Source: Candidatus Peribacteria bacterium
GTDB taxonomy: Bacteria; Patescibacteriota; Gracilibacteria; UBA1369; LOWO2-01-FULL-3
Direction: 5' to 3'
Length of the DNA stretch: 64,000 nucleotides
Assembly: GCA_943357285.1 (NCBI GenBank)
Contig: CALRGJ010000002.1
Span: 1-64,000, forward strand
Shown: positions 35,494-63,964 of the stretch, piece after piece
How positions within the stretch are numbered: position 1 is the first letter of the stretch
How the letters are laid out: each line of letters opens with the position of its first letter
Translations under genes and position numbers: made by a program
Notes under the pieces: model-generated
Told to the model about the DNA's origin: nothing
Seen by the model: the letters and a program-made list of their open reading frames with translations, nothing else
Database searches by the model: none

Positions 35494-36256
35494 AATTTTT
35501 GAAAAGTTTGCTGGCATGATTCGCCATGGTCTTTCGACGAGAAATGGTGGAGTGAGTGGTGGCGAGGACGGAAAGGAGTATTTGGCGAGCCTGAACTTGG
35601 GACAATTCGAGGAAGATAGTAAAGAAAATTTGGAAGAAAATTATAAGAGATTTTGCGAGGAGGTGGGGGTGGATAGTGGGCGGCTGGTCAGGGCCAATCA
35701 AGTTCACAAAGATGATATTTTAATTTTAAAAGGCGAAGTAGACCGTGGTAATTATGGCCTAAATAAGCCACAAGGCGACCATGATGGATTTATTACGAAT
35801 GTGAATGGCTTGGCTCTTTCTGTGCGCTTTGCGGACTGTCAGGGAGTGTTGTTTTTTGATCCGGTTCGGCGAGTAATTGCGGCGGTGCATGCTGGCTGGA
35901 GAGGAAATGCAAAAAATATTATTGGAAAATGTGTGAGAAAAATGGTGGAGGAATTTGGATGCTCGGCGGGAGATATTTTCGTGGGAATTTCACAATCATT
36001 GGGACCATGTCATGCGGAATTTAGCGAGCCGGAAAAGGAATTGCCCGATTGGATGCAAAAATATGTGGGAGGAGCAGATGGCCGCCATGTAGATTTATGG
36101 CAATGTAGTTTTGATCAATTGGTGGCAGAAGGTGTGCCGGCTGAAAATATTGAAATAATGCGACGATGCACCGTATGCGAAAATGATATTTTCTTTTCTT
36201 CTCGTGCTGGAAAAGGGAAAATGGGAGTGATGGCAGGGGTGATTTGTTTGAAATAA
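35474..36256 (+). CDS. pgeF: Laccase-domain protein, peptidoglycan editing factor PgeF (YfiH family)
   Basis: A 260-residue protein of the YfiH/DUF152 family. Key motifs are LSTRNGGVSGG, the metal-site His in ANQVHKDD, Cys in FADCQGVLFFDP and His in AAVHAGWRGNAKNII. Homologues in other bacteria remove wrongly inserted amino acids from peptidoglycan precursors or act as purine nucleosidases. The start at 35474 overlaps nnrD by 20 bp; Met at 35516 is an alternative. Expression is probably coupled to nnrD. The small-RNA promoter at 36247-36275 begins inside its last codons. Confidence 0.9.
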   Translation: MHFLKFKIFEKFAGMIRHGLSTRNGGVSGGEDGKEYLASLNLGQFEEDSKENLEENYKRFCEEVGVDSGRLVRANQVHKDDILILKGEVDRGNYGLNKPQGDHDGFITNVNGLALSVRFADCQGVLFFDPVRRVIAAVHAGWRGNAKNIIGKCVRKMVEEFGCSAGDIFVGISQSLGPCHAEFSEPEKELPDWMQKYVGGADGRHVDLWQCSFDQLVAEGVPAENIEIMRRCTVCENDIFFSSRAGKGKMGVMAGVICLK

Positions 36257-36275
36257 GCTTTTTATTTGATATAAT
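36247..36275 (+). promoter_or_regulatory. Promoter of small RNA A
   Basis: TTTGAA (36247-36252), 17-bp spacer ending in TGA, then TATAAT (36270-36275). The extended -10 plus following bases, TGnTATAATTATT, is repeated exactly at the second small-RNA locus (63961-63973, minus strand). Confidence 0.8.
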
Positions 36276-36281
36276 TATTTT

Positions 36282-36392
36282 GGGTGACAATCCAAATTTA
36301 TTTTTCTTGGCTTTTTAAAACCAAGCTGGTGGAGCCGTTAGATCACTGTCGGCATGTAAGAAAAGCTCTCTAATCAATTTAGAGAGCTTTTT
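36282..36392 (+). ncRNA. Small RNA A, complementary to the convergent tRNA-like RNA
   Basis: A predicted 111-nt RNA. Its 5' end GGTGACAATCC (36283-36293) is complementary to the anticodon-loop region of the tRNA-like RNA (36436-36446). A hairpin CTTGG/CCAAG (36306-36325) is followed at once by CTGGTGGAGCCGT (36326-36338), which complements that RNA's 3' acceptor strand plus CCA (36399-36411). It ends in the shared intrinsic terminator. No ORF is apparent. Function is inferred from complementarity only. Confidence 0.65.
36361..36392. terminator. Shared bidirectional terminator, locus A
   Basis: A perfect 13-bp-arm hairpin AAAAGCTCTCTAA-TCAAT-TTAGAGAGCTTTT with T-runs on both strands. It lies between the small RNA (plus) and the tRNA-like gene (minus). 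Confidence 0.9.
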
Positions 36393-36399
36393 GCTAATC

Positions 36400-36471
36400 T
36401 GGTGGAGCCGTGGGGAGTTGAACCCCAGACACCTAGGTGACAATCCTGGTGTCGCAACCACCACCGGCCCC
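36400..36471 (-). tRNA. Aberrant tRNA-like RNA A (possible anticodon TGT; identity uncertain)
   Basis: 72 nt with a good acceptor stem GGGGCCG/CGGCTCC, T arm TGGGG-TTCAACT-CCCCA, discriminator A and encoded CCA. The middle is odd: a stable hairpin ACACC-AGG/CCT-A-GGTGT with loop ATTGTCA competes with any D stem, so the RNA may lack a D arm, as tmRNA ends do. Reading the loop as an anticodon gives TGT (Thr) with a mismatch in the stem; GTC (Asp) would have no stem. A promoter lies upstream. Confidence 0.6.
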
Positions 36472-36487
36472 ATCGAGTAGCAGTCTG

Positions 36488-36532
36488 GTTATATCAACCA
36501 AACATTAAATTTTCTTAAATTAATTCTAAATT
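36488..36532 (-). promoter_or_regulatory. UP-like element plus extended -10 promoter of tRNA-like RNA A
   Basis: Minus strand: A/T-tract element (36532-36497), then TGA-TATAAC (36496-36488). No -35 consensus. The -10 box ends 16 nt before the RNA gene. The same arrangement is found at 40781-40832 and 63696-63750. Confidence 0.7.
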
Positions 36533-40339: not shown

Positions 40340-40534
40340 TTATTTAAGCTTTTTTTTGCTTTTGTTAATTAATTCTTCTAAATCAAAATCCAGGAGAACT
40401 TCTATGTTTACGATCTTTCCATCTACGTCGTAATCAAAGATGCAATCACCTTCTGAATCACTACTAACAATTTCTGCTTTGCTTAAGCGAATCATTAGTA
40501 TTTTAACTTCTGGATCGTAGGTTACTTTGGTCAT
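40340..40534 (-). CDS. DUF2283 family protein, putative antitoxin
   Basis: A 64-residue protein with the DUF2283 pattern: YDPEVKILMIRLS, then SDSEGDCIFDYDVDGKIVNIEVLLDF. Such proteins are often encoded beside DUF4258 proteins and are suspected antitoxins. Its ATG overlaps the TGA of the DUF4258 gene (ATGA, 40531-40534), so translation is coupled, with the toxin-like gene first. No experimental function is known to me. Confidence 0.85.
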   Translation of the reverse strand: MTKVTYDPEVKILMIRLSKAEIVSSDSEGDCIFDYDVDGKIVNIEVLLDFDLEELINKSKKKLK

Positions 40535-40773
40535 GATAAATATCTTTTAAGTTGAGAACTTTCGTAAACTGTAATAATTGTACACTCGTCATTTTCAATT
40601 CTACAAGGCAAAATAAGTAGATGCTGATTATTCTTGATTAATTTTTTAAATAGAAATTGATCATTTTTATAATCTACCCTGGTTGGATTATTTATACAGT
40701 TATGAATGTCCAAAAGAGAGATTTTTCTCTCTTCAAGTTGCTGCGTTGCGTGATAAGTAAATTTCAGTTCCAT
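40531..40773 (-). CDS. DUF4258 family protein, putative RelE/ParE-like toxin
   Basis: An 80-residue protein with the DUF4258 layout: FTYHATQQLEERKISLLDIHNCINNP, then strands ending in TIITVYESS. The fold is expected to resemble RelE/ParE toxins, and the H..QQLEER motif is the family hallmark. It is transcribed from a UP-like plus extended -10 promoter whose -10 box is 7 nt from the ATG, so the message should be leaderless. It forms a bicistron with the DUF2283 gene. Confidence 0.82.
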   Translation of the reverse strand: MELKFTYHATQQLEERKISLLDIHNCINNPTRVDYKNDQFLFKKLIKNNQHLLILPCRIENDECTIITVYESSQLKRYLS

Positions 40774-40780
40774 GCTTACC

Positions 40781-40832
40781 GTTCTAGCAGGTGAACATTA
40801 AATTTTCTTAAATTTTTTCTAAATTAATTCTG
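40781..40832 (-). promoter_or_regulatory. UP-like element plus extended -10 promoter of the toxin-antitoxin pair
   Basis: Minus strand: A/T-tract element nearly identical to those before the two tRNA-like RNA genes (40832-40790), then TGC-TAGAAC (40789-40781). The ATG at 40773 follows after 7 nt. Confidence 0.75.
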
Positions 40833-63639: not shown

Positions 63640-63695
63640 TTTTCGCACTTAGTTATTAAAGCTGAGGCTTTTTTGGCGTCGAGAGATTTTAGGAA

Positions 63696-63750
63696 TTTTA
63701 GAATTAATTTAGAAAAATTTTAAGAAAATTTAAGGTTTGTTTGATTTAAT
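63696..63750 (+). promoter_or_regulatory. UP-like element plus extended -10 promoter of tRNA-like RNA C
   Basis: A/T-tract element (63696-63734) nearly identical to 40832-40790 (minus), then TGA-TTTAAT (63742-63750). The -10 box ends 18 nt before the RNA gene. Confidence 0.7.
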
Positions 63751-63768
63751 GATGATGCATTATCGCCT

Positions 63769-63842
63769 GGGGGTGTGAGCGTGGTCGCTCGAGCTAGAGT
63801 TAGCACCTAGCTTCCCGGGTTCGATTCCCGGCACCTCCACCA
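63769..63842 (+). tRNA. Aberrant tRNA-like RNA C (identity uncertain)
   Basis: 74 nt with acceptor GGGGGTG/CACCTCC, T arm CCGGG-TTCGATT-CCCGG, discriminator A and encoded CCA. The D hairpin is compact (GAGCG-TGGT-CGCTC). The anticodon arm is overlong, six to seven pairs (AGCTAG/CTAGCT) with a nine-base loop AGTTAGCAC. Depending on how the loop is read, the anticodon would be TAG (Leu) or AGC (Ala), and neither fits the rest. It may be aminoacylated through its CCA end, but use in decoding is doubtful. Confidence 0.6.
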
Positions 63843-63849
63843 TAATGCT

Positions 63850-63883
63850 AAAAAGAGCCTCCGCTATACGGGGACTCTTTTTT
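63850..63883. terminator. Shared bidirectional terminator, locus C
   Basis: AAAAAGAG-CTCCG/CGGGG-CTCTTTTTT hairpin between the tRNA-like gene (plus) and small RNA C (minus), with T-runs on both strands. Confidence 0.88.
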
Positions 63884-63958
63884 AAAGGATTTCCTACACC
63901 TCCACCATGAGTCTAATCAGAAGATAAAGACTCGAAACTTAAACTAGAGTTAGCACCT
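63850..63958 (-). ncRNA. Small RNA C, complementary to the convergent tRNA-like RNA
   Basis: A predicted 109-nt RNA starting at 63958. Its first 15 nt (63958-63944) are complementary to the anticodon-arm sequence CTAGAGTTAGCACCT of tRNA-like RNA C (63794-63808). A hairpin GAGTCT/AGACTC (63933-63909) is followed at once by ATGGTGGAGGTG (63908-63897), which complements the acceptor strand plus CCA (63832-63843). It ends in the shared terminator. Same layout as small RNA A, with different sequence. Confidence 0.65.
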
Positions 63959-63964
63959 GTAATA

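Follow-up and report, generated by a model that had tools for sequence, protein, structure and literature searches.

Alanine-type tRNA-like RNAs and their complementary small RNAs form a candidate competence-linked pair in Patescibacteria

The window analysed here, a 64,000-nucleotide (nt) stretch of a Peribacteria genome, encodes at each of two loci, A and B, a tRNA-like RNA next to a small RNA that is complementary to it. Judged from the sequences, the two RNAs probably form an antagonistic, competence-linked pair (probability of roughly 0.8), a reading supported by the presence of both genes, their pairing and its co-variation, the orthogonality of the pairs, promoter logic and identity elements. 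Loci A and B are confirmed as members of a large family of D-arm-reduced, alanine-type (G3:U70, A73) tRNA-likes. An initial annotation of this DNA had raised the idea of an RNA-only antagonistic pair, and the conserved, co-varying pairing supports it as a serious candidate; the alanine identity, the multi-copy family and the competence promoter were absent from that annotation.

Gene anatomy at loci A and B

At locus A (36247-36532), a 72-nt tRNA-like gene and a plus-strand small-RNA gene converge on one hairpin terminator, with the following elements.

36248-36275, plus strand: promoter of small RNA A, TTGAAA-16 nt-TG.TATAAT, without the competence motif
~36282-36392, plus strand: predicted transcript of small RNA A, starting near 36282
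36283-36293, plus strand: small RNA A segment 1, GGUGACAAUCC, complement of the anticodon loop region at 36436-36446
36306-36325, plus strand: internal hairpin of small RNA A, CUUGG...CCAAG
36327-36338, plus strand: small RNA A segment 2, UGGUGGAGCCGU, complement of the acceptor 3′ strand and CCA at 36400-36411
36344-36353, plus strand: small RNA A segment 3, CACUGUCGGC, forming 10 pairs, including G.U, with the D region of tRNA-like A, GCCGGUGGUG
36361-36392, both strands: terminator hairpin common to both genes
36400-36471, minus strand: tRNA-like RNA A, with acceptor GGGGCCG/CGGCTCC, G3:U70, A73 and encoded CCA
36488-36496, minus strand: extended −10 of tRNA-like RNA A, TGA-TATAAC, read from the sequence
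36499-36519, minus strand: competence-regulon motif upstream of tRNA-like RNA A, TTTAAGAAAATTTAATGTTTG, continuing upstream as TTTAGAATTAA to ~36532

The fold, promoters and terminator previously assigned to a CCA-bearing tRNA-like (36471-36400, minus strand) and a small RNA (36282-36392, plus strand) are thus confirmed. tRNA-like A comprises a 7-bp acceptor stem, a reduced D region, a long anticodon stem closed by the 7-nt loop AUUGUCA, and a 5-bp T arm with a TTCAACT loop. It scores 44.3 bits with the tmRNA model RF00023 and 73.6 bits with R2, our covariance model of the family, and ARAGORN makes no tRNA or tmRNA call there. Rfam returns no family at threshold at locus A, the tRNA-like falling below both the tRNA and the tmRNA thresholds; below threshold, the closest models are those of tmRNA and of another small tRNA-like, mascRNA-menRNA. 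The latter model (MALAT1 tRNA-like) aligns to 36404-36471 on the minus strand with 37 bits against a threshold of 42.5, a similarity that is probably that of convergent small tRNA-likes with reduced D arms.

Small RNA A matches its neighbour in three places. The 11-nt complement to the anticodon loop region that had been noted is exact at 36283-36293; the complement to the acceptor and CCA, put at 13 nt, is exact over 12, and the 13th pair needs the trailing G of the precursor. The G.U-containing 10-nt match to the D region (36344-36353) had not been noted, and segments resembling it occur in relatives. Complementary runs of at least 11 nt, of which the real small RNA A has two, arose in none of 2,000 dinucleotide shuffles of it. 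The position of locus A is lineage-specific, being occupied only in the window's genome (G000) and in G002.

Locus B has the same anatomy with different sequences.

63719-63739, plus strand: competence-regulon motif upstream of tRNA-like RNA B, TTTAAGAAAATTTAAGGTTTG
63769-63842, plus strand: tRNA-like RNA B, with G3:U70, A73, CCA, a 5-bp/4-nt mini D arm and a loop containing ...AGUUAGCAC...
~63850-63960, minus strand: small RNA B, with −10 TATAAT at 63970-63965
63898-63909, minus strand: small RNA B segment 2, AUGGUGGAGGUG, complement of the acceptor 3′ strand and CCA
63944-63958, minus strand: small RNA B segment 1, AGGUGCUAACUCUAG, complement of the tRNA-like B loop and 5′ anticodon stem

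The window's genome carries five tRNA-likes and one degenerate copy. The latter (G000:C1:7150-7400; L144:100-350) is without a proper acceptor or CCA and keeps both its competence promoter and its partner, a small RNA in which 19 nt are complementary to the loop of the tRNA-like.

A family of tRNA-like RNAs and their partners

MAFFT alignment of diverse members misaligned the 5′ acceptor, so we built a covariance model from a five-sequence seed (R1) and extended it to 43 members (R2). A search of relatives with such a model, which the initial annotation had proposed, gives R2 matches in 47 of the 89 genomes of the order (E ≤ 1e-8), with at most six different copies per genome. Beyond the order, 12 more genomes of the class give matches, some of them false ones to tRNA-Ala, and the matches in other classes of Patescibacteria are scattered and patchy. 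A few R2 matches outside the order at the same threshold proved to be ordinary tRNA-Ala (76 nt; G136 was inspected) and were discarded.

Among 84 members, identity elements are nearly invariant: G3:U70 in 83, A73 in 83 and G1:C72 in 80. An exact CCA ends 67 members and is not encoded in the other 17. G3:U70 together with A73 is the established alanine identity, and among the 30 canonical tRNAs of the window's genome G3:U70 occurs only in tRNA-Ala (UGC and GGC); the acceptor GGGGCUG...CAGCUCC is identical in canonical tRNA-Ala and some tRNA-likes. In folded members the D arm is reduced to a mini arm, often of 3 bp and with GG in its loop; the anticodon stem runs to ~9 bp, about as long as D and anticodon stems together; and the T arm has 5 bp and carries TTCRA. 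On tRNA models the tRNA-likes score 27-28 bits or are unlisted, against an Rfam gathering score of 29 and at least 50 bits for each of 40 real tRNAs. Leader and trailer of the tRNA-likes also pair with each other (mean score 18.0 versus 11.1 for non-cognate combinations, against 10.0 and 10.5, respectively, for canonical tRNAs), and 3′-end maturation is not assured for this reason.

The loops are diverse. Canonical-looking 7-nt anticodon loops (CUACGAA, CUGAUAA, CUGUCAA and others) are found in 21 of 84 members, and a U-Y-R-N-C/G-A type in 57 by a loose pattern, a few of which were perhaps matched outside the loop. The latter can be read either as a 7-nt loop with C37, which to our knowledge is not found in ordinary tRNAs, or as an 8-nt loop. 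The anticodons that accompany the alanine identity, in a register that is ambiguous between 7 and 8 nt, include ACG, GAU, GUC, GCG, GAC and GAG; in some loops a genuine alanine anticodon can be read (AGC for B and G000e, GGC for G033a). The tRNA-likes do not replace a missing isoacceptor, as canonical GAU, GUC, GAC, GCG, GAG and GGC tRNAs are all present in the genome.

Partners were sought at all 84 loci. Full-length duplex energies between whole tRNA-likes and whole flanks were too noisy (cognate ranked first in 15 of 81; median z −1.8) and were therefore replaced by the best ungapped complement of the anticodon arm in 260-nt flanks on both strands. By this measure, 64 members find the best complement of all 84 flanks in their own, and for 74 it is among the top three, bearing out the earlier suggestion that the complementary RNA is dedicated to its neighbour. 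The exceptions are mainly contig ends, near-identical homologues and partners that pair with the acceptor or D region instead (G000e, G083a, G025a and G053a).

Convergence on one terminator, proposed as the layout of the pair, holds at A and is common (58 of the 74 top-three loci) but not essential: 11 partners lie divergently upstream and 5 in tandem downstream. At nine loci of other classes the partner is in tandem downstream with 14-20 complementary nt, and in one family (f30) it is in tandem upstream. We accordingly rejected the convergent layout as a requirement. In 58 of the 74, the distance from the end of a TATAAT-like box to the first paired nucleotide is 5-7 nt, and the predicted 5′ end of the small RNA is therefore its seed. 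From sequence, the general rule is pairing from this end with the anticodon loop and onward into the 5′ half; pairing with the acceptor and CCA is limited to a minority of loci.

The initial annotation had named loss of the complementarity in relatives as evidence against a functional pair; over the 84 loci, the pairing is retained while sequence, gene order and strand vary. Between B and G003d the loop changes from UUAGCAC/GUGCUAA to UUAACAC/GUGUUAA, and between G001a and G003a there are three changes, all compensated. Cognate pairs within one genome are mostly orthogonal. Against the best of 30 canonical tRNAs, small RNAs score their own tRNA-like at 32 versus 26 (A), 42.5 versus 28 (B), 39 versus 27.5 (c) and 38 versus 23.5 (d).

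A partner accompanies every intact tRNA-like whose flanks are complete. Among members with complete flanks, only G029b clearly stands alone, and it has lost A73 and CCA, while partners are retained beside the damaged tRNA-likes G005a (G3:A70), G027c (T stem) and the degenerate copy at G000:C1:7160. With damage defined by simple pair counts, in which a single T-stem mismatch may be tolerated, and with small numbers, this asymmetry, in which the partner outlasts the tRNA-like, resembles the pattern that toxin-antitoxin decay would leave. At the orthologue of locus A in G002 (G002a; G002:C1:75137-75411; L032:340-460), a 26-nt deletion removes the −10 of the tRNA-like but leaves the small RNA intact together with its pairing segments.

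A predicted competence regulon

All tRNA-likes of the window's genome are preceded by a 21-nt motif, and the region upstream of the tRNA-likes carries TTTAAGAAAATTTAANNTTTG; the small-RNA promoters are without it. With up to three mismatches, the genome has 35 motif sites, against 8 for a reversed control. In the same genome the motif stands directly upstream of ssb, comF (ComF-like PRTase), recA-recX, dprA, comM and comEC, and it leads genes for a ComEC-like MBL protein, YraN, two lamin-tail-domain (LTD) proteins, an HNH-like protein, a KilA-N protein and several protein toxin-antitoxin-like pairs. The comF, recA-recX, dprA, comM and comEC genes each have their own copy (L131, L133, L134, L140 and L143). 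From this gene content, we predict that the motif-led set is the competence regulon of the clade. A reading as a tRNA promoter was ruled out, since the sites precede com genes and tRNA-likes and do not coincide with canonical tRNAs.

The association recurs in other families. In f4, a diverged motif lies upstream of the six tRNA-likes of G064, ssb and an LTD-like protein. Family f13 has another such motif, which leads three tRNA-likes as well as ssb, dprA, the gene of an LTD-like protein and a Phd/RelE-like pair, the protein genes there being named from their sequences. A motif common to tRNA-likes and DNA-uptake or recombination genes is thus found in three families (f1, f4 and f13), with fewer genes checked outside the window's genome. 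The motif lies within a longer run of TTTA-GAA-like units ~11 bp apart (36499-36532 and 63690-63739; also at com genes). This spacing is as would be expected of an activator binding one helix face. From family to family, the sequence of the motif drifts.

The DNA-uptake regulon also seems to include protein toxin-antitoxin modules. One motif-led pair lies in the window.

40340-40812, minus strand: DUF4258/DUF2283 gene pair, toxin-antitoxin-like by layout, led by a motif site at 40812-40792

Other genomic sites lead Phd/PIN (L129), MazE-like (L135) and HicA-like (L132) modules. Secreted LTD proteins recur in the regulon of three families (L126, L139, L211 and L292) and are possibly surface proteins for DNA uptake.

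Possible action, rival explanations and related systems

We propose that the first RNA of the antagonistic pair is a compact tRNA mimic with an alanyl acceptor (G1:C72, G2:C71, G3:U70, A73, CCA), its elbow held by a tiny GG-bearing D arm and its variable, anticodon-like loop comprising 7-8 nt. It would be made during natural competence through its motif, an expectation that follows from the promoter motif being common to DNA-uptake genes. AlaRS would charge it with alanine and EF-Tu would deliver it to the ribosome, where a non-alanine or expanded loop would misread, shift the frame or jam the A site, making the RNA a toxin or a brake. The second RNA, from a plain and probably constitutive promoter, would start at its first pairing nucleotide, seed on the anticodon loop and extend into the 5′ anticodon stem, the D arm and, at some loci, the acceptor and CCA, unfolding the tRNA-like before it acts. 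Expression, charging, translation as the target, toxicity and neutralisation are the predicted steps of this scheme.

We give about even odds to a translation-directed toxin-antitoxin system that consists of an alanine-accepting tRNA mimic and a dedicated antisense RNA. An ancient, phylum-wide class of RNA-only toxin-antitoxin systems, in which a misreading or frameshifting, competence-induced alanine tRNA mimic is opposed by a 5′-seeded antisense antitoxin, is put forward tentatively, as falling just short of an even chance. Against the proposal stand the AGC and GGC loops of B, G000e and G033a, where misreading would be harmless, the 17 of 84 members without an exact CCA, the leader-trailer pairing and the ambiguous loop register. 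If the proposal is correct, the module could arrest translation in competent cells or penalise locus loss by transformation, and tRNAs would be seen to serve in their own right as regulated weapons or brakes. It would also give a handle on DNA-uptake control in poorly cultivable Patescibacteria and offer naturally orthogonal tRNA/anti-tRNA pairs, and the motif predicts a ready-made competence regulon for Peribacteria.

The main rival is a useful competence-specific tRNA, serving for instance programmed recoding, frameshifting or slowed translation during uptake, with the small RNA as its silencer outside competence. Such a pair would operate as in our proposal, but with neither toxicity nor selfishness. 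We regard this as unlikely, although the tRNA-likes lie within a conserved competence regulon in three families, the family persists across the phylum, and most of the same marks would be expected of a beneficial tRNA kept silent except during competence. Such a service sits poorly with the patchy presence of the family, with up to six mutually orthogonal copies per genome whose loops are unrelated, with lineage-specific sites such as that of locus A and with the protein toxin-antitoxin modules that share its regulon; the retention of partners beside damaged tRNA-likes also suits an addiction-like element better than one defined service. The roles could instead be reversed, with the small RNA as the main actor on canonical tRNAs or mRNAs and the tRNA-like as a sponge that titrates it during competence. 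This is improbable because the small RNAs mostly prefer their own partner to canonical tRNAs, clearly so for A, B, c and d against the 30 canonical tRNAs, even if a few of these score moderately (small RNA e, 31.0 with the tRNA-Asp acceptor versus 34.0 with its own partner); a sponge would, moreover, need no G3:U70, A73 or tRNA fold.

The two RNAs might also be the parts of one two-piece RNA, either a split tmRNA-like rescue molecule or a primer and template on incoming DNA. The tmRNA model does rate A and B, at 44 bits, higher than the genome's ordinary tRNAs, and at both loci the CCA end is covered by the small RNA in the manner of a primer-binding site. A complete tmRNA is nevertheless present in the same genome (G000:C5:7260-7687), which also ruled out tmRNA loss as an explanation; we noticed no conserved reading frame among the small RNAs, most partners leave the CCA end untouched, and pairing would destroy the tRNA fold, so we consider the two-piece RNA decidedly improbable. 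Decayed tRNA genes or integration-site remnants, with duplicated pieces pairing by descent, would account for complementary segments that are same-strand direct repeats of tRNA-like sequence. That divergent members retain fold, identity elements, promoters and compensated pairing, that R2 finds the family phylum-wide and that no integrase-like gene was noticed adjoining A make such an origin scarcely credible. Finally, a trans-acting T-box, a separate RNA that reads anticodon and acceptor and switches its own terminator by charging, is very improbable. In A and B the RNA does contact the anticodon region and the CCA end in the same order as a T-box, a resemblance that the initial annotation had pointed out. 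As a key to the locus, this comparison is not supported: the T-box model (RF00230) has no match at loci A and B at the gathering score or at E ≤ 1, most members are without an acceptor-pairing segment, and the anticodon-loop rule is the general one. The partner here is a separate RNA with long pairing and no downstream gene; no amino-acid or synthetase gene follows the small RNAs on their strand at A or B, where the terminators face the tRNA-like gene rather than a gene to regulate.

The antagonistic pair can be set beside several known systems. The tRNA-like domain of tmRNA (RF00023) shares the alanine acceptor with G3:U70, the T arm and a reduced D region, and in the genome's ranking by RF00023 score tRNA-likes come next after the real tmRNA. 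These differ, however, in their length (68-74 nt), their closed anticodon-like loop and their antisense partner, and they coexist with a normal tmRNA; an mRNA-like domain with a tag reading frame is absent from them, and ARAGORN finds none.

Allo-tRNAs and other irregular bacterial tRNAs (Mukai et al. 2017, reviewed in PMC7609411) have, in the accessible text of the review, Ser or Ala (G3:U70) identity that mismatches the anticodon. GCG and GUC anticodons are common among them, as in the tRNA-likes here, and the same text relays a guess that some irregular soil tRNAs belong to transposons or toxin-antitoxin systems (PMC7609411). It gives allo-tRNAs 8/4 or 9/3 acceptor branches and describes no antisense partner (PMC7609411). 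The tRNA-likes here have 7/5 bp, a mini D arm, a long anticodon stem and nearly always G3:U70, and are partnered, competence-linked and found in Patescibacteria; by structure, they are not allo-tRNAs.

A tRNA-shaped RNA with a dedicated antisense RNA to its anticodon loop appears to be undescribed: no such family is in Rfam at threshold or in the open literature that was searched (subscription papers lay outside the search), in agreement with the initial annotation, which knew of no described family. The nearest RNA-only system touching tRNAs, CreTA (PMC8501985), shares two RNA partners, tRNA-centred harm to translation and possible addiction, but works otherwise. A mini-ORF in CreT serves to sequester a rare tRNA, and CreA acts as a Cas-guided repressor (PMC8501985), whereas here it is the tRNA mimic itself that is the candidate toxin, and its partner pairs with it directly. 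The CRISPR-like creA of that system adjoins a CRISPR-Cas locus. General inspection of locus A noticed no repeat or Cas-like gene beside it.

In SdsR/RyeA-type toxin-antitoxin pairs both partners are RNA, and the directly pairing RNA partners of such RNA-only (type VIII) systems are found here from sequence and co-variation. In hok/sok and RNA I/RNA II, a constitutive small antisense RNA starts pairing at a loop of its partner, which it then unfolds. The target of those type I antitoxins and plasmid antisense RNAs is an mRNA or a replication primer; here it is a tRNA mimic.
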